A stretch of DNA of 64,000 nucleotides from positions 1-64,000 of the forward strand of contig NZ_JALTON010000013.1 of NCBI RefSeq assembly GCF_027000115.1, written 5' to 3'. The DNA comes from Thiohalobacter sp. GTDB lineage: Bacteria > Pseudomonadota > Gammaproteobacteria > Thiohalobacterales > Thiohalobacteraceae. A program made the position numbers and the translations under genes. The notes below the pieces were generated by a model that did not search any database, was not told where the DNA came from, and saw nothing but the letters and a program-made list of their open reading frames with translations. Shown here one piece after another: positions 47,455 to 57,387 of this stretch; positions within the stretch are counted from its first letter, which is position 1, and the number at the start of each line of letters is the position of its first letter.

Positions 47455-48696
47455 TCACTCCGGACGGCGCAGTACCAGGGTGCCGTTGGTGCCGCCGAAG
47501 CCGAAGGAGTTCGACAGGGCCACGTCGATCTTCATCGGCCGCGCCTCGTTGGGTACATAGTCGAGATCGCAGTCCGGGTCCGGCGTCCGGTAGTTGATGG
47601 TCGGCGGCGCCACCTGATCACGGATGGCCAGCGCGCTGAACACGGCCTCGATGCCGCCGGCCGCGCCGAGCAGATGGCCGGTCATGGACTTGGTGGAACT
47701 CATCGCCAGCCGATGGGCATGCTCGCCGAAGGCTGCCTTCACAGCCTCCGTCTCGGCCTTGTCCCCGGCCGGGGTGGAGGTGCCGTGGGCATTGATGTAG
47801 TCCACGTCCTCGGGATTCAGGCCGGCGTCGTGAAGCGCGTTCAGCATGCAGCGGTACGCGCCCTCCCCGCCCTCCGCGGGCTGGGTCATGTGATGGGCGT
47901 CACCGCTCATGCCGTAGCCGAGCACCTCGGCATAGATGTTGGCACCACGGGCCTTTGCGTGCTCGTATTCCTCCAGCACCACAACGCCGGCACCGTCTCC
48001 GAGCACGAAGCCGTCACGCTCCTTGTCGAAGGGACGGCTGGCGCCCTGCGGATCGTCGTTGCGGGTGGACAGTGCTCGCGCTGCCGCGAAGCCGCCCAGA
48101 CCCAGGGGCGTACTGGCCATTTCCGCGCCACCGGCCACCATGATGTCGGCATCGCCATAAGCGATGAAGCGCGCAGCCTGGCCAATGTTGTGGGTGCCCG
48201 TGGTGCAGGCAGTGACGATGGCGATGTTCGGGCCCTTGAACCCCTCCATGATGGAAAGGTTGCCCGAGATCATGTTGATGATCGACGAAGGCACGAAGAA
48301 GGGCGAGATCTTGCGCGGCCCCCTGGCCAACAGGTTGGCATGGTTCTCCTCGATGGTGTGCAGGCCACCGATCCCGGAGCCGATGGCCACGCCGATGCGC
48401 CCGGCATTGGCCTCGGTCACCTCGAAGCCGGAATCGGCGATGGCCTGCTTGCCGGCGGCGATGCCGTAATGGATGAAGGGATCCATCTTTCGGGCATCCT
48501 TGCTCGACATGTACTCGGTCACGTCGAAGCCTTCAATGGTGCCGCCAAAACGCACGCTGAACTCCGAGACATCGAAGCGGTCGATGGGCCGGATACCGCT
48601 GTGCCCCGCGAGAATGTTGTCCCAGGCTTCCTTGAGGTTCAGACCGACGGGCGAGACGATCCCCATGCCGGTGATGACGACGCGTCGTTTGGACAA
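47455..48696 (-). CDS. fabF: Beta-ketoacyl-ACP synthase II
   Basis: A 413-residue condensing enzyme that extends acyl-ACP with malonyl-ACP. The nucleophile lies in [16 protein letters not shown]; the two histidines are in [16 protein letters not shown] and [15 protein letters not shown], and [13 protein letters not shown] closes the fold. Length agrees with FabF. It follows acpP after an 89-bp gap that holds a terminator-like hairpin, which may set its level below that of acpP. Confidence 0.97.
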
Positions 48697-48785: not shown

Positions 48786-49022
48786 TCAGCCCAGGTTTGC
48801 GTTGATGTAGTCGATCGCCTGCTGGACGGTGGTGATCTTTTCGGCCTCTTCGTCCGGAATCTCGCACTCGAATTCTTCCTCGAGGGCCATGACCAGTTCC
48901 ACGGTATCCAGGGAATCGGCGCCGAGATCGTCCACGAAAGAGGCCTGGTTGGTGACTTCGTCTTCCTTCACGCCGAGCTGTTCGACAACGATCTTCTTGA
49001 CGCGTTCTTCGACATTACTCAT
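48786..49022 (-). CDS. acpP: Acyl carrier protein
   Basis: A 78-residue acidic carrier protein. The phosphopantetheine Ser is in [20 protein letters not shown]; the start reads [20 protein letters not shown]. Length and sequence are canonical. GGAGGA lies 9 bases before the ATG at 49022. It carries acyl chains for FabD, FabH, FabG, FabF and PlsX, all encoded around it. A separate promoter candidate lies at 49068-49097. Confidence 0.98.
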
Positions 49023-49067
49023 GACAAAAAAATCCTCCAAGATTCCGGCCGCAGGAGCCGCGGCGGT

Positions 49068-49206: not shown

Positions 49207-49950
49207 TCAGGCCATGTGCATGCCACCGTTGACGTGCAGCGTCTCGCCGGTGATGTAGGCCGCGTCCGGCGAAGCCAGGAAGGCCACGGCGCGCGCGATG
49301 TCCTCGGCCGCACCCAAGCGGCCGAGCGGAATGTTGTCCAGCAGCGCGGCACGCTGTTCCTCGGACAGCGCACGGGTCATGTCGGTGTCGATGAAACCGG
49401 GCGCGACCGTGTTGACCGTGATCCCGCGGGATCCGACCTCGCGGGCCAGCGACTTGGCGAAACCGATCATGCCCGCCTTTGCGGCCGCATAGTTGGTCTG
49501 GCCCGGATTGCCGGTGGCACCGACCACCGAGGCGATATTGATGATGCGTCCGTGGCGTGCCTTCATCATGGCGCGCAGGCAGGCCTTGCTCAGGCGGAAC
49601 ACCGAATTCAGGTTGGTGTCGATAACCGCGTCCCACTCCTCGTCCTTCATGCGCATGAGCAGGTTGTCGCGGGTGATGCCGGCGTTGTTGACGAGGATAC
49701 TCGGCGCACCGAATTCCCCGGCGATCGCCTTCGTGAGTGCGTCGATGCTGTCGGGGTCCGTTACGTTCAGAACCTTGCCCGCCCCCTTGACCCCGGCCTC
49801 GGCAAGGGCGGCATCGATGGCCTGGGCGCCGGCCTCGGTGGTGGCGGTGCCGATCACGGTCGCCCCGCGGGCGCCCAGCTCCAGCGCAATCGCGCGGCCG
49901 ATGCCGCGGCTGGCGCCGGTGACCAGTGCAATTTCGTTGTCCAGTGACAT
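49207..49950 (-). CDS. fabG: 3-oxoacyl-ACP reductase
   Basis: A 247-residue short-chain dehydrogenase using NADPH to reduce 3-oxoacyl-ACP. The cofactor motif is ALVTGASRGIGRAIALEL, followed by LVNNAGITRDNLLMRM with the catalytic Ser in NIASVVGATGNPGQTNYAAAKAG, which also holds Tyr and Lys. VAPGFIDTDMT completes the FabG signature. It follows fabD by 34 bp. Confidence 0.97.
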   Translation of the reverse strand: MSLDNEIALVTGASRGIGRAIALELGARGATVIGTATTEAGAQAIDAALAEAGVKGAGKVLNVTDPDSIDALTKAIAGEFGAPSILVNNAGITRDNLLMRMKDEEWDAVIDTNLNSVFRLSKACLRAMMKARHGRIINIASVVGATGNPGQTNYAAAKAGMIGFAKSLAREVGSRGITVNTVAPGFIDTDMTRALSEEQRAALLDNIPLGRLGAAEDIARAVAFLASPDAAYITGETLHVNGGMHMA

Positions 49951-49984: not shown

Positions 49985-50917
49985 TCAGTCGGCCTGCAGC
50001 GCAGCGGCCAGGGAATCGGGATCCTCCACCGCCAATGCCTGCAACTGCCGGTCGATGCGCTTGTTGAGGCCGGTGAGCACCTTGCCCGGCCCCAGTTCGA
50101 TCACCGTGCTCGCGCCGCCGGCGGCCAGCGCGCGGATGGTCTCCACCCAGCGCACCGGGCTGTGTAGCTGCAGCCTCAGCGCCTCGCGGATGCCGTCCGG
50201 GTCGTCGTGGGTGGCGACATCCACGTTGTGCAGCACCGGGATTCGGGGCTTGATGATCTTCACGCCCGCCAGCACCTCGGCCAGGCGTTCGGCCGCCGGC
50301 GCCATCAGCGTACAGTGCGAAGGTACGCTGACCGGCAATACCAGTGCGCGCCTTGCCCCGGCAGCCTTCGCCGCCGCGGTCGCGCGCGCCACTGCCTCGG
50401 CATGGCCCGCGATGACCACCTGGCCGGGCGAGTTGAAGTTCACCGGCTCCAGCACCTGTCCCTGCGCCTCGGCCTCGCACAGGGCGCGTACCTGATCGTC
50501 GTCCAGGCCCAGGATGGCGGCCATGGCGCCCGTGCCTTCGGGGACCGCTTCCTGCATGGCGCGAGCCCGCGCCTCGACGACCTTTACCGCATCGGCAAAC
50601 GGCAGGGTGTCGGCCGCGACCAGTGCGCTGTACTCGCCCAGGCTGTGACCGGCCATCGCCACCGGCATCGGACCGCCGGCCGCCTGCCACACCCGCCACA
50701 CAGCCACCCCCGCCGCCAGCATCGCCGGCTGCGTACGGTCGGTGCGGTTCAGCGCCTCGGCCGGACCCTGCTGCACCAGTGCCCACAGGTCCTCGCCGAG
50801 CACCTCGCTGGCCTCGGCGAAGGTCTCCTGCACCTGCGGCCAGGCCTCGGCCAAGGCCGCCAGCATGCCCACACTCTGTGAACCCTGTCCAGGGAAGACT
50901 GTTGCCATCTTGCTCAT
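49985..50917 (-). CDS. fabD: Malonyl-CoA:ACP transacylase
   Basis: A 310-residue acyltransferase loading malonate onto ACP. VFPGQGSQSVGML opens the protein; the nucleophile is in AMAGHSLGEYSALVAA and the partner His is in VSVPSHCTLM. The ELGPGKVLTGLNKRI segment is typical at the end. I chose the ATG at 50917 (MSKMATVFPG) with GAGAGAA upstream. The 183-bp gap to fabH contains repeat A copy 10 and a short CTCACGC tandem repeat (51080-51097). Confidence 0.96.
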   Translation of the reverse strand: MSKMATVFPGQGSQSVGMLAALAEAWPQVQETFAEASEVLGEDLWALVQQGPAEALNRTDRTQPAMLAAGVAVWRVWQAAGGPMPVAMAGHSLGEYSALVAADTLPFADAVKVVEARARAMQEAVPEGTGAMAAILGLDDDQVRALCEAEAQGQVLEPVNFNSPGQVVIAGHAEAVARATAAAKAAGARRALVLPVSVPSHCTLMAPAAERLAEVLAGVKIIKPRIPVLHNVDVATHDDPDGIREALRLQLHSPVRWVETIRALAAGGASTVIELGPGKVLTGLNKRIDRQLQALAVEDPDSLAAALQAD

Positions 50918-50954
50918 CGTTTTCTCTCGAATGCCGGTTGTCGCAAGCACGATT

Positions 50955-51100: not shown

Positions 51101-52069
51101 TCAAAACTTCATCAACACCGAACCCCAGGTAAAGCCACCCCCGAAGGCCTCCATCAGCACCGTTTCCCCACGCTGGATACGGCCATCGCGCACTGCGGTA
51201 TCCAGCGCCAGCGGCACCGAGGCAGCCGAGGTATTGCCCTGCTGATCGACAGTGATGACCACCCGCTCGGTCGGCATCTTGAGCTTTTTGGCAGTTGCGT
51301 TGATGATGCGGATATTGGCCTGATGCGGCACCAGCCAGTCGATGTCTGACTGCTTCAGACGATTCGCCGCCAGCGTCTCGTCGACGATGCGACCGAGGGT
51401 GTTCACGGCCATCTTGAACACCTCGTTGCCCTTCATCTCGATGTAGGCCTCGCCACCACGCAGCCGGTCGTAGCCGGATGAAACCCCGGCCGGCACGGTG
51501 AGCAGATTCTCGTAGCTGCCATCGGCATGCAGGTGGGTGGACAGGATACCCGGTTCCTCGCTCGCCTCGAGGATCACCGCGCCGGCCCCGTCGCCGAACA
51601 ATACGCAAGTGCTGCGGTCGGTCCAGTCGACGATGCGTGACAGCGTTTCAGCGCCGATCACCAGTGCGCAACGCGTGGAACCCGAGCGAATGAACTTGTC
51701 GGCCACACCGAGCGCGTACACGAAACCGGTGCACACGGCCTGCACGTCGAAGGCCGCGCAGCCATGGATGTCCAGCCGCTGCTGCACCAGACAGGCGGTG
51801 CTGGGAAAGATACGGTCGGGCGTGGTGGTGGCGACGATGATGAGGTCGATGTCTGCCGGACCCTTGCCGGCGGCTTCCATTGCCCGTCGCGCTGCGATCT
51901 CGGCCAGATCGCAGGTGGTCTGGTCGTCGGCGGCAATGTGGCGCTTCTCGATGCCGGTGCGGCTCCGGATCCACTCGTCGCTGGTATCGACCATCTGTTC
52001 GAGGTCGTGATTGGTAAGGACCTTTTCGGGCAGATAGCCACCCGTTCCCGTGATACGCGAATAAGTCAC
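51101..52069 (-). CDS. fabH: Beta-ketoacyl-ACP synthase III
   Basis: A 322-residue condensing enzyme starting fatty-acid synthesis from acyl-CoA and malonyl-ACP. The nucleophile is in [14 protein letters not shown]; His is in [13 protein letters not shown] and Asn in [15 protein letters not shown]. The start is GTG at 52069, overlapping the plsX stop (GTGA), so translation is probably coupled. Confidence 0.97.
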
Positions 52070-53103
52070 ACGGCCTGCCTTTCAGTGAGCAGCGCTTCCA
52101 GCTGATGATCTATCCTTTGTGGAACCGCCAGGTGGACTTCATCAATGGCGACATCGATGGCATTGGCCAGGGCCAGGCCATCGGCGCCGCCATGACTCTT
52201 GATCACGATCCCCCGCAGCCCCAGCAGGCTGGCGCCATTGTAGCGCCGCGGATCGACCCGGCGCCGGAAGGCGCGCAACACCGGTAGCGCGATCAGCCCG
52301 GCCAGCCGGGTCAGGGGATTGCGGGTGAACTCTTCCTTCATGAAATGCGCGATCATCTTCGCCACTCCCTCCATGGTCTTGAGCGAGACATTGCCGACGA
52401 AACCGTCGCAGACCACCACGTCGACCTCGCCACTGAAGACATCGTCGCCCTCGACATAACCGATATAGTTGAGCGAGCTGGCGGCGAGCAGGCGATTGGC
52501 CTCCTTGACCTGATCGTTGCCCTTGATTTCTTCCTCGCCAATGTTGAGCAGGCCGACGCGCGGCGCTTGGAGGCCGTCGACCGCGGAGGCCAGTACCGAG
52601 CCCATGACCGCGAACTGGAACAGATGCTCGGCACTGCTGTCGACATTGGCACCGAGGTCCAGCACCCGGGTATGGCCCTTTATGGAGGGGATGGCGGTGA
52701 GAATGGCCGGGCGGTCGATGCCCGGCAGGGTCTTGAGCACATAGCGCGCAGTGGCCATGAGCGCGCCGGTATTGCCGGCACTCACGCAGGCCTGCGCCTC
52801 GCCCTGCTTGACCAGGTTGATGGCCACGCGCATCGAGGAATCCTTCTTCATGCGCAGCGCGCGCGAGGGCAGATCGTCCATTGCGACGACCTGGGATGCG
52901 TGCTGCACACGCAGTCGTCCCGCCTCCAGGTGTACCAGGCCGCCCGATCGTTCGATTGCCTCTCGGACCAACGTTTCATCGCCGACCAGTACCAGGTCCA
53001 GTTCCGGCCGGGCGTCGAGCGCGCGCAGGGCGCCGGGCACCGTGGCCTGGAGCCCCAGATCGCCACCCATGGCATCGACTGAGATGACTACGCGATCAGC
53101 CAT
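52066..53103 (-). CDS. plsX: Phosphate acyltransferase PlsX
   Basis: A 345-residue enzyme making acyl-phosphate from acyl-ACP for phospholipid synthesis. [12 protein letters not shown] opens the protein, with [45 protein letters not shown] and [14 protein letters not shown] as family signatures. It follows rpmF and a GC-rich hairpin, and overlaps fabH. Order rpmF-plsX-fabH is the classic gammaproteobacterial one. Confidence 0.97.
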
Positions 53104-53213: not shown

Positions 53214-53393
53214 TCAGTCCTCGTCGCGGCTGACGACCTTGCGACCGCGGTAATAGCCGTCAGGGCTGATGTGGTGACGCAGGTGCGTCTCGCCCGTGGT
53301 CGGCTCGATGGACAGCGCGCGCGACTTGAGGGCGTCGTGCGAGCGCCGCATGCCGCGCTTCGACGGGGTCTTCCGGTTCTGCTGAACTGCCAT
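53214..53393 (-). CDS. rpmF: 50S ribosomal protein L32
   Basis: A 59-residue basic ribosomal protein. The start [20 protein letters not shown] is canonical; [19 protein letters not shown] and [10 protein letters not shown] follow. It lacks the zinc-binding cysteines of some L32 forms. A 6-bp gap separates it from yceD, with which it is cotranscribed in E. coli as here. Confidence 0.97.
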
Positions 53394-53399
53394 GACAGA

Positions 53400-53930
53400 T
53401 CACTCCTGTTCCTGATTGCTCTTCAACTGCGCCAGCACCGCGAAGGGATTTTCGCGCTGCCGATCCTGTTCTTCCGCACCCGGTGCCTGCCGGCCCTCGC
53501 CCAGCGCCGAGCAGGGCTCGGCATGCATGGGAAACATGGGCAGCGACAGCAGGATCTCGTCCTCGACCAGATCCGCCGGCGCGATACGGTCGCCCTGCGC
53601 CACCACCAGCGGTTCCGACTCTGCCGGCACCTCGGCCACCCGGGCCTCGCTGTCCACCAGCCCGAGCCGGAGACGCAGATCCAGCGTCTGTTGCAGCTCA
53701 CCCAGACAACGCTCGCAGGTCAGCGTGACGGCACCGGTGACATGGCCGGTCACCAGCGCCCGACCACTGTCGTCCTGGCCAAAGTGGAGCTCGACGTCCA
53801 GTTCGCCCTCGCGCGCGGCCAGCAATGGCCGCAGGCGCTCCAGGGCCGCGACCGGCACGGCCCCGGCCAGCGTCCGTTCCCCGCGCGCCAGCGCGTGGGG
53901 ATCGACGCGATCCGGCAATCGGTGCTGCAT
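53400..53930 (-). CDS. yceD: YceD-family (DUF177) protein
   Basis: A 176-residue member of the YceD/DUF177 family linked to 23S rRNA accumulation. LTCERCLGELQQTLDL carries the CxxC pair typical of the family, PADLVEDEILLSLPMFPMHA is the most conserved stretch and NPFAVLAQLKS ends the protein. The start MQHRLPDRVDP aligns with the E. coli N-terminus. No ribosome binding site precedes the ATG; a strong promoter ends 9 bases before it, so the mRNA may be leaderless. It heads the long fab cluster. Confidence 0.93.
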   Translation of the reverse strand: MQHRLPDRVDPHALARGERTLAGAVPVAALERLRPLLAAREGELDVELHFGQDDSGRALVTGHVTGAVTLTCERCLGELQQTLDLRLRLGLVDSEARVAEVPAESEPLVVAQGDRIAPADLVEDEILLSLPMFPMHAEPCSALGEGRQAPGAEEQDRQRENPFAVLAQLKSNQEQE

Positions 53931-53939
53931 AAGCGGCGC

Positions 53940-53968
53940 ATCATATCCCGCCCAACCTTTTGTGTCAA
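53940..53968 (-). promoter_or_regulatory. Strong sigma-70 promoter of yceD-rpmF-plsX-fab
   Basis: On the minus strand TTGACA, a 17-base spacer and TATGAT, 11 of 12 consensus matches at ideal spacing. The -10 ends 9 bases before the yceD ATG, placing the start of transcription at about 53932-53934. Confidence 0.85.
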
Positions 53969-54015
53969 AACAGGAATTGGGATTTCGCGGGGGCTTGTGC
54001 AGGTGCCTGATCCGG

Positions 54016-54044
54016 TTGACAAGCCGGAAGCTATTCCGTAAACA
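54016..54044 (+). promoter_or_regulatory. Promoter candidate for the pyruvate carboxylase genes
   Basis: TTGACA at 54016-54021, a 17-base spacer and TAAACA, about 75 bases before the TTG start at 54121. The -35 is perfect, the -10 weak. Confidence 0.45.
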
Positions 54045-54120
54045 GTCAGGCGAGGCTCGGGGGCCGTCCCGCACCACCCGCCGGCAGCCTGCCCGCACCA
54101 CCGAGGCCGGGGATAATCCG

Positions 54121-55539
54121 TTGATAAGAAAGATCCTTATTGCCAACCGCGGCGAGATCGCGGTACGCATCGTGCGGGCCTGCCGCGAAATGGGCATCCG
54201 CTCCGTGGCTATTTTCACCGACGCCGACCGTCATGCCCTGCATGTCCGCAAGGCCGACGAAGCCTACGGTATCGGTCCGGACTCCGTGGCCGGCTACCTG
54301 AACGCCCACCGTATCGTCAACCTGGCGCTGGCCACCGGCTGCGATGCCCTGCATCCCGGCTACGGCTTCCTCTCCGAGAATCCCGAACTGGCCGAGATCT
54401 GCCAGCGGCGCGGCATCCGTTTCATCGGTCCCTCCCCGGAGGTCATCCGGCGCATGGGCGACAAGACCGAGGCCCGCCGCGCCATGCAGGCCGCCGGTGT
54501 GCCCGTCGTTCCCGGCAGCGAGGGCAATCTTCGCAATCTGGACGAGGCGCTGGCGCTGGCCGACGAGATCGGCTACCCGGTCATGCTCAAGGCCACCTCC
54601 GGCGGTGGCGGCCGCGGCATCCGCCGTTGCGGCACCCCCGAGGAACTGCGGCGCAACTACGATCGCGTCATTTCCGAGGCCACCAAGGCCTTCGGCAGCG
54701 CCGACGTCTTCATCGAAAAGTGCATCGACCGGCCGCGCCACATCGAGGTGCAGATCCTCGGTGACAGCCACGGCAATGTCATCCACCTGTTCGAGCGCGA
54801 CTGCTCCATCCAGCGCCGTCACCAGAAACTGGTCGAGATCGCGCCTTCCCCGCAGCTCGACGATGCCCAGCGTGCACTCATCGGCGACTACGCGGTCAAG
54901 GCCGCCCGCGCAGTCGGCTACGAGAATGCGGGCACGGTGGAATTCCTGATGACGCCCGACGACGAGTTCTACTTCATGGAAATGAACACCCGGCTGCAGG
55001 TGGAACACCCGGTCACCGAGGTCATCACCGGCGTGGACGTCGTGCAGGAACAGATCCGCATTGCCGCCGGCGAACCGCTGCGCTTCGCCCAGTCCGACAT
55101 CGAACGTCGCGGCTATGCCATGGAATTCCGCATCAACGCCGAGGATCCGAAGAACGATTTCCTGCCCAGCTTCGGACGCATCACCCGCTACTTCGCTCCC
55201 GGCGGCCCCGGGGTGCGTACCGACGCCGCCATCTATACCGGCTACGTCATTCCGCCCTACTACGACTCCATGTGCGCCAAGCTCACGGTCTGGGCCCTGA
55301 CCTGGGAGGAACTGATCCAGCGCGCCAACCGTGCGCTGATCGACATCGGCGTGTACGGGGTGAAGACCACGATTCCCTACTATCTGGAGATCCTCAAGAC
55401 CCCCGACTTCCGCGCCGGCCGTTTCGATACCGGCTTCGTCGAGGATCATCCCGAACTCACCGAATACACCACCAGCCGCCCCACCCGCGAACTGGCTGCC
55501 GTGATGGCCGCTGCGATCGCGGCCCATTGCGGCTTCTGA
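54121..55539 (+). CDS. pycA: Biotin carboxylase subunit, pyruvate carboxylase subunit A type
   Basis: A 472-residue ATP-grasp biotin carboxylase. ILIANRGEIAVRIVRACRE opens the N-domain, GYGFLSENPELAEIC follows, KATSGGGGRGIR is the glycine-rich ATP loop, and EMNTRLQVEHPVTEVITG contains catalytic residues. It resembles AccC, but the next gene encodes a carboxyltransferase with biotin domain, so it most likely forms a two-subunit pyruvate carboxylase. The start is TTG at 54121 with GGGGAT upstream; no other start fits the conserved N-terminus. Confidence 0.88.
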   Translation: MIRKILIANRGEIAVRIVRACREMGIRSVAIFTDADRHALHVRKADEAYGIGPDSVAGYLNAHRIVNLALATGCDALHPGYGFLSENPELAEICQRRGIRFIGPSPEVIRRMGDKTEARRAMQAAGVPVVPGSEGNLRNLDEALALADEIGYPVMLKATSGGGGRGIRRCGTPEELRRNYDRVISEATKAFGSADVFIEKCIDRPRHIEVQILGDSHGNVIHLFERDCSIQRRHQKLVEIAPSPQLDDAQRALIGDYAVKAARAVGYENAGTVEFLMTPDDEFYFMEMNTRLQVEHPVTEVITGVDVVQEQIRIAAGEPLRFAQSDIERRGYAMEFRINAEDPKNDFLPSFGRITRYFAPGGPGVRTDAAIYTGYVIPPYYDSMCAKLTVWALTWEELIQRANRALIDIGVYGVKTTIPYYLEILKTPDFRAGRFDTGFVEDHPELTEYTTSRPTRELAAVMAAAIAAHCGF

Positions 55540-55563
55540 CACCATGCCTCACCGGAGACCGAC

Positions 55564-57387
55564 ATGAGCCAGGTCCATATCACCGATGTCGTGCTGCGCG
55601 ATGGCCACCAGTCGCTGATCGCCACCCGCATGCGCACCGAGGACATGCTGCCGATCTGCGACAAGCTGGACCGGGTCGGCTACTGGTCGCTGGAAGTCTG
55701 GGGCGGCGCGACCTTCGACGCCTGCATCCGGTTCCTGAAGGAAGATCCCTGGGAACGGCTGCGCGCCCTGCGCGAGGCCCTGCCCAACACCCGCCTGCAG
55801 ATGCTGCTGCGGGGGCAGAACCTGCTCGGCTACCGCCACTACTCCGATGACGTGGTCGAGGCCTTCGTCGAACGCGCAGCAGCGGACGGCATCGACGTGT
55901 TCCGCATCTTCGACGCCCTCAACGACACCCGCAACCTGGAGACCGCCATCCGCGCCGTCCGCCAGACCGGCAAGCATGCCCAGGGCACCCTCTGCTACAC
56001 CACCAGCCCGGTGCACGGCATCGAGCAGTTCGCAGCCATGGCCCGCGAGCTGGAGGATATGGGCTGCGACAGCATTGCAGTCAAGGACATGGCCGGCCTG
56101 CTGACGCCGATGGTCACCGGAGAACTGTTCGCGCGCCTGACCGGATCCGTCTCCATTCCCGTACATCTGCACATGCACGCCACCGCCGGCGTGGCCGAGA
56201 TGTGCCACCTGAAGGCCATCGAAAACGGCTGCCGGCACATCGACACCGCCATCTCGGCCTTTGCCGGCGGTGCCAGCCACCCGCCCACCGAAAGCATGGT
56301 CGCGGCCCTTGCCGGCACCGAATACGACACCGGCCTGGACCTCCACCGGCTGCAGGAGATCGGTTTCTATTTCCGCGAGGTGCGCCGCAAGTATCGCCCG
56401 TTCGAGAGCGAGTTCACCGGCCTCGACACCCGGGTGCAGATCTACCAGGTACCGGGCGGCATGATCTCCAACCTCTACAACCAGCTCCGCGAGCAGGGGG
56501 AGCTGGGGCGCATGAACGAGGTACTGGAGGAGATTCCGCGCGTGCGCGAGGACCTGGGCTACCCGCCGCTGGTCACGCCCACCTCGCAGATCGTCGGCAC
56601 CCAGGCGGTGATGAACGTGCTCACCGGCCAGCGCTACCAGACCATCACCAACGAGGTGAAGCTCTACCTCCAGGGCCGCTATGGCCGGGCGCCGGGCGAG
56701 GTCAATTCGCTGGTACGCCAGCAGGCCATCGGCAATGCCGATGTCATCGACGTGCGTCCGGCAGACCTGCTGCCTCCGGAAATGGAACAGCTGCGCGAGA
56801 ACGTCGGCGAGCTGGCGCGCAGCGAGGAGGACGTGCTGACGGTGGCCATGTTCCCGGAGGTCGGCCGCGAATTCCTGGCGCAGCGCAACGCCGGCACCCT
56901 GCGACCCGAGCCGCTGGAACCGCCACCCGGCGAGAGCGAGCCGCTGGGCCGGCCCACCGAGTTCAACGTCACCCTCCATGGCGACACCTATCACATCCGC
57001 GTCACCGGCGCCGGTCATCGGCACCAGGACAAGCGGCCCTTCTATCTCACCGTCGATGGCGTGCCCGAGGAGATCCTGGTCGAATCACTGGAGGAAGTCG
57101 AGGAGGAAGGCGAATCGGGCGGAACACCTCGTCCCAGGGGCAGCCGCCGCCCACGCGCCAGCGGACCCGGCGACGTGACCACCTCCATGCCCGGCACCGT
57201 GGTGGAAGTACTGGTCGTCGAGGGCGACAGCGTCAAGGCGGGTGATCCGGTGCTGGTCGCCGAGGCCATGAAGATGGAAACCGAGATCCAGGCACCGGTG
57301 TCCGGCAGGGTGAAGGCGGTCCATGTAGCCAAGGGCGACACCGTCAACCCCGACGAGACCCTGATCGAGATCGAGGTCGCCGAATGA
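55564..57387 (+). CDS. pycB: Pyruvate carboxylase subunit B / oxaloacetate decarboxylase alpha type
   Basis: A 607-residue protein with a TIM-barrel carboxyltransferase domain (about 1-280: VVLRDGHQSLIATRM, WGGATFDACIRFL, MLLRGQNLLGYRHY, VHLHMHATAGVA), a conserved middle domain, a charged linker (about 500-535) and a C-terminal biotinyl domain with the Lys in VAEAMKMETEI. OadA of sodium pumps looks alike, but no membrane subunits OadB or OadG lie nearby, and a biotin carboxylase gene precedes it. A replenishing pyruvate carboxylase is favoured. Its stop overlaps the yceF start by 4 bp. Confidence 0.9.
   Translation: MSQVHITDVVLRDGHQSLIATRMRTEDMLPICDKLDRVGYWSLEVWGGATFDACIRFLKEDPWERLRALREALPNTRLQMLLRGQNLLGYRHYSDDVVEAFVERAAADGIDVFRIFDALNDTRNLETAIRAVRQTGKHAQGTLCYTTSPVHGIEQFAAMARELEDMGCDSIAVKDMAGLLTPMVTGELFARLTGSVSIPVHLHMHATAGVAEMCHLKAIENGCRHIDTAISAFAGGASHPPTESMVAALAGTEYDTGLDLHRLQEIGFYFREVRRKYRPFESEFTGLDTRVQIYQVPGGMISNLYNQLREQGELGRMNEVLEEIPRVREDLGYPPLVTPTSQIVGTQAVMNVLTGQRYQTITNEVKLYLQGRYGRAPGEVNSLVRQQAIGNADVIDVRPADLLPPEMEQLRENVGELARSEEDVLTVAMFPEVGREFLAQRNAGTLRPEPLEPPPGESEPLGRPTEFNVTLHGDTYHIRVTGAGHRHQDKRPFYLTVDGVPEEILVESLEEVEEEGESGGTPRPRGSRRPRASGPGDVTTSMPGTVVEVLVVEGDSVKAGDPVLVAEAMKMETEIQAPVSGRVKAVHVAKGDTVNPDETLIEIEVAE

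Follow-up and report, generated by a model that had tools for sequence, protein, structure and literature searches.

Our analysis indicates that the yceD-rpmF-plsX-fab operon of Thiohalobacter sp. is headed by a sigma70 promoter of early gammaproteobacterial origin, placed so close to the yceD start codon that the mRNA would carry a leader of only 0-4 nt and would be translated as a leaderless message. We assign to this reading as a whole a probability of about 80%. The features identified in the window (the whole stretch of 64,000 nt that was analysed) are collected in Table 1.

Table 1. Features of the yceD-fab operon and of its promoter region in the window.
Feature	Positions	Strand	Basis and remarks
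-35 element TTGACA (6/6)	53963..53968	-	window sequence; kept in class sample
Spacer, 17 nt	53946..53962	-	window sequence
-10 element TATGAT (5/6)	53940..53945	-	window sequence and promoter scoring
G+C-rich discriminator and pyrimidine run, GCGCCG-CTT = GCGCCGCTT, from -10 to ATG	53931..53939	-	
yceD start codon ATG, without Shine-Dalgarno (SD)	53928..53930	-	protein alignment, SD energies, codon conservation
yceD, 23S rRNA accumulation protein (DUF177, 176 aa)	53400..53930	-	PF02620, E 2.2e-22
rpmF, ribosomal protein bL32	53214..53393	-	PF01783; next cistron, 6-nt gap after yceD
plsX	52066..53103	-	translation; E. coli gene order
fabH	51101..52069	-	translation; E. coli gene order
fabD	49985..50950	-	translation; 5' boundary as listed, but the gene may begin a few codons further inside
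fabG	49207..49950	-	translation
acpP	48786..49040	-	translation
fabF	47455..48696	-	translation

Promoter and start codon of yceD in the window

A preliminary description of this DNA had pointed out a TTGACA-N17-TATGAT promoter ending 9 bases before the yceD ATG, and our results confirm it. The site matches 11 of the 12 positions of the sigma70 consensus, is separated from the ATG by 9 nt counted from the end of its -10 element, and obtains the highest weighted sigma70 score of the 64-kb window (14.22, the runner-up scoring 10.89, among 127,920 positions on both strands). The pattern TTGACA-N16-18-TATRAT-N9-ATG has a single match in the 2.65-Mb genome and none for the reversed-pattern control; when the promoter pattern is relaxed and a distance of 6-11 nt to the ATG is allowed, two matches are obtained in the genome versus one in the control. 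It is important to consider that plain consensus scans yield promoter-like sites by chance, about one being expected per 10 kb at 9/12, and the yceD promoter might on that ground be taken for a chance match or for an artefact of the compact divergent intergenic region. A match of 11/12 that is single in the genome contradicts a chance origin, which the genome-wide and class-wide counts rule out, and the spacing is unchanged despite different divergent neighbors (biotin carboxylase here, yceF/maf in E. coli); we consider this explanation practically negligible. On this evidence, we regard the yceD site as a true housekeeping (sigma70) promoter that serves the yceD-rpmF-plsX-fab operon.

The gene order of the E. 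coli yceD-rpmF operon is identical to that of the window, and a promoter upstream of yceD has been reported for it (Tanaka et al. 1989, as cited in PMC5049393). On the divergent side, a biotin carboxylase gene and an oxaloacetate decarboxylase/pyruvate carboxylase B-type gene (54121-57387, plus strand) separate yceD from maf in the window, in contrast to E. coli, where yceF, of the maf family, is directly divergent from yceD. The divergent carboxylase gene has its own weaker candidate promoter upstream, TTGACA-N17-TAAACA (54016-54044, plus strand), with a score of 8.6.

The yceD start codon at 53930, which had been regarded as fixed by the conserved N-terminus of the protein, is secure because N-terminal alignment, codon periodicity and upstream in-frame stops agree on it. 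The alignment of YceD proteins begins at the Met encoded by this ATG, and the aligned start is an ATG in 218 distinct loci, with 5 further loci having none within range; the rule for picking starts considered ATG only. Sequence conservation over codons 2-6 amounts to 0.46, 0.40 and 0.04 bits at codon positions 1, 2 and 3, respectively (145 class-sample loci), and an in-frame upstream stop precludes an earlier start in 72 of the 125 loci whose promoter is adjacent to the ATG. The yceD frame of the window genome is open for 100 codons upstream of the ATG. Upstream starts, as well as GTG or TTG starts, were rejected, given that many relatives have in-frame stops just upstream. If the true start lay downstream, with an SD of its own, the conserved ATG would be incidental; in-frame GTG codons do occur further inside yceD, and nothing speaks positively for such a start, whereas the periodicity from codon 2 on, the aligned N-terminus and the fixed distance between ATG and promoter across loci all oppose it, making it very improbable.

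No SD-like site was found directly upstream of the yceD ATG of the window, in agreement with the earlier claim that a ribosome site is missing, and the class sample gives the same result. The mean energy of the anti-SD duplex is about -0.92 kcal/mol for yceD, compared with -6.95 kcal/mol for rpmF in the same class-sample loci, and the SD is stronger at rpmF than at yceD in 106 of 107 loci (p = 3e-19). Within the class sample, the energy at yceD is no better than that of shuffled sequence (mean -1.64 kcal/mol).

Conservation of the layout across the class

The yceD loci were taken from the same family, from genomes drawn across the class, from 80 named contigs found through rpmF, from E. coli and from a phylum-wide draw. 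When the 200 nt before the yceD ATG are scored, the best promoter leaves a gap of 6-11 nt to the ATG in 125 of the 145 non-redundant loci of the class sample, and a gap of exactly 9 nt in 91 of the 145. The count of 125 is if anything low because the start rule settles on an ATG too far downstream at a few loci (e.g. L018, L151 and L153). The spacing, whose conservation in related genera had been raised as a question, is thus kept far beyond them. A gap of 7-10 nt is present in 153 of the first 221 loci versus 2.5% in block-shuffled upstream sequence, and among the loci with a promoter at this distance the spacer is 17 nt in 112 and 18 nt in 37. E. coli (L032) carries TTGACT-N17-TAATAT-N9-ATG before yceD, as its best promoter and at exactly 9 nt, and the same gap is found in loci resembling Pasteurellaceae and Pseudomonas. 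Among 17 further loci of the phylum-wide draw, 15 have their best promoter at exactly 9 nt; of the remaining two, one has no ATG that could be scored and the other is without the layout. The layout is also carried by two more loci with E. coli-like YceD N-termini, although in one of these another site scores higher. Identity to the YceD protein of the window is only about 30-45% across the set, and therefore the shared layout does not stem from recent common ancestry. Among the sampled yceD genes from other classes of the phylum, the start-adjacent layout is absent, and many of these genes have strong SDs. These results point to the start-adjacent yceD promoter as a trait of nearly the whole of the Gammaproteobacteria that probably originated in an early ancestor of the class.

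Conservation is confined to the promoter. The 41-42 nt before the ATG hold 13.9 bits in ATG-aligned loci, and the mean from -200 to -61 is 0.017 bits per position. The conserved signal is made up of the -35 and -10 elements, a G+C-rich discriminator and, at the end, a run of pyrimidines that usually reads CTT or CCT. The first 6 nt of the discriminator are 84% G+C (GCGCCG in the window copy), compared with 56% in the spacer, and a T stands immediately before the AUG in 95% of the loci with a 9-nt gap. The UP element region (-60 to -40) holds little apart from a weak T tract next to the -35, on its upstream side; the search for a second conserved promoter or leader element upstream of yceD found nothing conserved past about -44. 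When 97 genomes of the class were scanned with a strict promoter-N9-ATG pattern, 89 matches were obtained versus 46 in the control; by hand count, 32 of the 89 lie at yceD, and no other recurrent gene was recognised. Two near-consensus promoter-N9-ATG sites with the same style of discriminator were seen elsewhere, one away from the yceD of its genome (G131:C21:107202-107242) and one at the edge of a contig from a genome in which no yceD was detected (G095:C7:40-80).

Not all lineages keep this arrangement. Within the betaproteobacterial part of the GTDB Gammaproteobacteria, Nitrosomonas-like loci retain it, and it is absent from Comamonadaceae/Burkholderiaceae; losses in this last group, in Oxalobacteraceae and in part of the Lysobacterales mean that the layout is not indispensable. 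The yceD promoter of Oxalobacteraceae has shifted to about 28 nt from the ATG; it lies about 25-29 nt before it, with a conserved leader, TATTATCGCAGGTTTTCCGGGGAAA, in L094, L103, L107, L110, L112, L113, L116, L119, L121, L123, L128, L129, L131, L134, L135 and L139, which looks like the insertion of a leader into an originally leaderless arrangement. Four loci from Comamonadaceae and similar organisms (L118, L130, L137 and L288) have a conserved ATTCTCTTACACTG located 6-7 nt before the yceD ATG with no recognisable -35, possibly another type of start-adjacent promoter. In L122, L170 and L196, a near-consensus promoter of the same type as that of the window precedes the chosen yceD ATG by 90 nt, which suggests either that a leader was gained secondarily or that the true start is a different one. 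Finally, L083 (Lysobacterales by title) and L092 have in common GGATGTGAGGCC before the yceD ATG, a possible SD start in place of the leaderless one.

Predicted transcription start and alternative explanations

It has been reported that the modal sigma70 transcription start site (TSS) is position 7 after the -10 element and that the discriminator sequence can shift it to position 9 (PMC5730371); rrnB P1, which has a G+C-rich discriminator, starts 9 nt past its -10, with position 6 serving as an alternative when the complex is unscrunched (PMC7822876). At the promoter-adjacent yceD loci, purines account for 13%, 4% and 9% of positions 7, 8 and 9, respectively, and for 77% of position 6; the A of the AUG occupies position 10. 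Because positions 7-9 are pyrimidines, and given the precedents of rrnB P1 and of TSS selection, yceD transcription would be expected to begin either at the G four bases before the AUG or at the A of the AUG itself. By this analogy, the likely candidates in the window are G 53934, with the 4-nt leader GCTT (53934-53931), and A 53930, with no leader. A gap of 6 nt would be needed for a modal TSS to fall exactly at the AUG; the 9-nt gap of yceD exceeds the modal distance, and therefore a leader of 2-4 nt is as possible as none. The ribosome would recognise the 5'-terminal AUG of yceD instead of an SD, and rpmF would be translated by normal SD initiation. In E. coli, AUG is the start codon preferred by leaderless messages.

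The preliminary description had allowed a leader of at most 2-4 bases, and this limit, an inference drawn from the DNA, is strongly supported by the fixed class-wide spacing, the lack of an SD and the lack of any other conserved upstream element. In a study of Salmonella, messages that lack an SD are classed as leaderless when their leader is 6 nt or shorter (PMC3293720), and the predicted yceD leader of 0-4 nt fits that definition because it lies within the limit. Against this reading, only five leaderless mRNAs have been listed in E. coli by dRNA-seq/gRNA-seq (dicA, pgpA, racR, rhlB and ymfK), yceD not being among them, in a study that called only 728 class-I starts (PMC4681348).

A start-adjacent promoter need not drive most of the translation of the adjoining codon, and most YceD could come from a leadered mRNA made by a second promoter further upstream, with the ultra-short transcript feeding mainly rpmF and the fab genes. 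The several promoters known within the yceD-fab cluster of E. coli (PMC3896788) are compatible with such an arrangement. Against it, the region from -200 to -61 is unconserved, yceD lacks an SD across the class sample, and the sigma70 scan found no second strong minus-strand promoter in 53969-54120; we regard a leadered source of YceD as improbable. A different objection accepts the short transcript and concerns only the mechanism: with transcription starting at G 53934, a message with a leader of 2-4 nt might be read by ordinary 30S initiation without an SD. The frequent purine at position 6 favours that start, and the same position is the alternative start of rrnB P1 in unscrunched complexes, but A(+1) is a good start as well, given the T before the AUG and the run of pyrimidines, and under the Salmonella usage such a leader would still be termed leaderless. 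We hold this to be possible, if rather unlikely, and retain leaderless translation of yceD as the preferred reading.

Comparison with known systems and biological meaning

Like the known leaderless mRNAs (lambda cI and Tn1721 tetR; rhlB and pgpA of E. coli), yceD has a promoter that abuts the AUG and no SD, and translation would in all of them depend on the 5'-terminal AUG. Most of the cases known from Gammaproteobacteria are repressors of phages or transposons, or else scattered genes, whereas yceD, whose leaderless status is predicted from sequence, heads a ribosomal-protein/lipid operon with a geometry conserved class-wide. The promoter itself resembles rrnB P1 in its near-consensus -10, in its G+C-rich discriminator (GCGCC here too) and in the purines at position 6 and at positions 9-10 after the -10; it differs in that it drives an mRNA, has a spacer of 17 nt and shows only a hint of an UP element in the T tract. 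The yceD sequence is compatible with a TSS 9 nt past the -10 through scrunching, and such a long-distance TSS would place the start at the AUG, unlike in rrnB P1. The G+C-rich discriminator would liken the yceD promoter to rRNA-type promoters, which are inhibited by ppGpp/DksA, and a stringent-type promoter of this kind would make YceD, L32 and the synthesis of fatty acids depend on growth rate.

Two claims on the wider context of the operon have to be qualified. Leaderless messages had been called rare in Gammaproteobacteria, which holds gene by gene, with 5 to 33 leaderless mRNAs in each mapped species of the studies consulted, but the yceD case is class-wide and no local oddity. The operon had also been called essential, and in E. 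coli its essential functions are those of the downstream fab genes. yceD itself is non-essential there, the mutant showing normal growth on rich medium and a reduced amount of 23S rRNA (PMC5049393). Leaderless mRNA is known as a kind; we did not find yceD described as a member of it, nor the depth of its conservation, and the two subjects were not found joined in the main texts that were searched.

In Gammaproteobacteria, leaderless mRNAs are commonly presented as scattered and rare exceptions. A promoter kept about 9 nt from the yceD start across the class suggests that a leaderless start has been selected for in a housekeeping gene of ribosome assembly. The gene would offer a native, conserved substrate for studies of leaderless initiation in model organisms, and it may connect ribosome assembly with the stringent response and with fatty-acid synthesis. 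Intact 70S ribosomes are favoured by leaderless mRNAs, which do not respond to factors that limit SD initiation, so YceD could be made according to the state of the ribosomes. That yceD uses leaderless initiation as a regulatory device selected across the class, in which YceD output follows ribosome state and the rRNA-type promoter sets operon transcription by growth rate, is a tentative proposal that we still consider doubtful. If true, it would represent a feedback of ancient origin, kept in E. coli too, that joins the assembly of ribosomes to a leaderless message.
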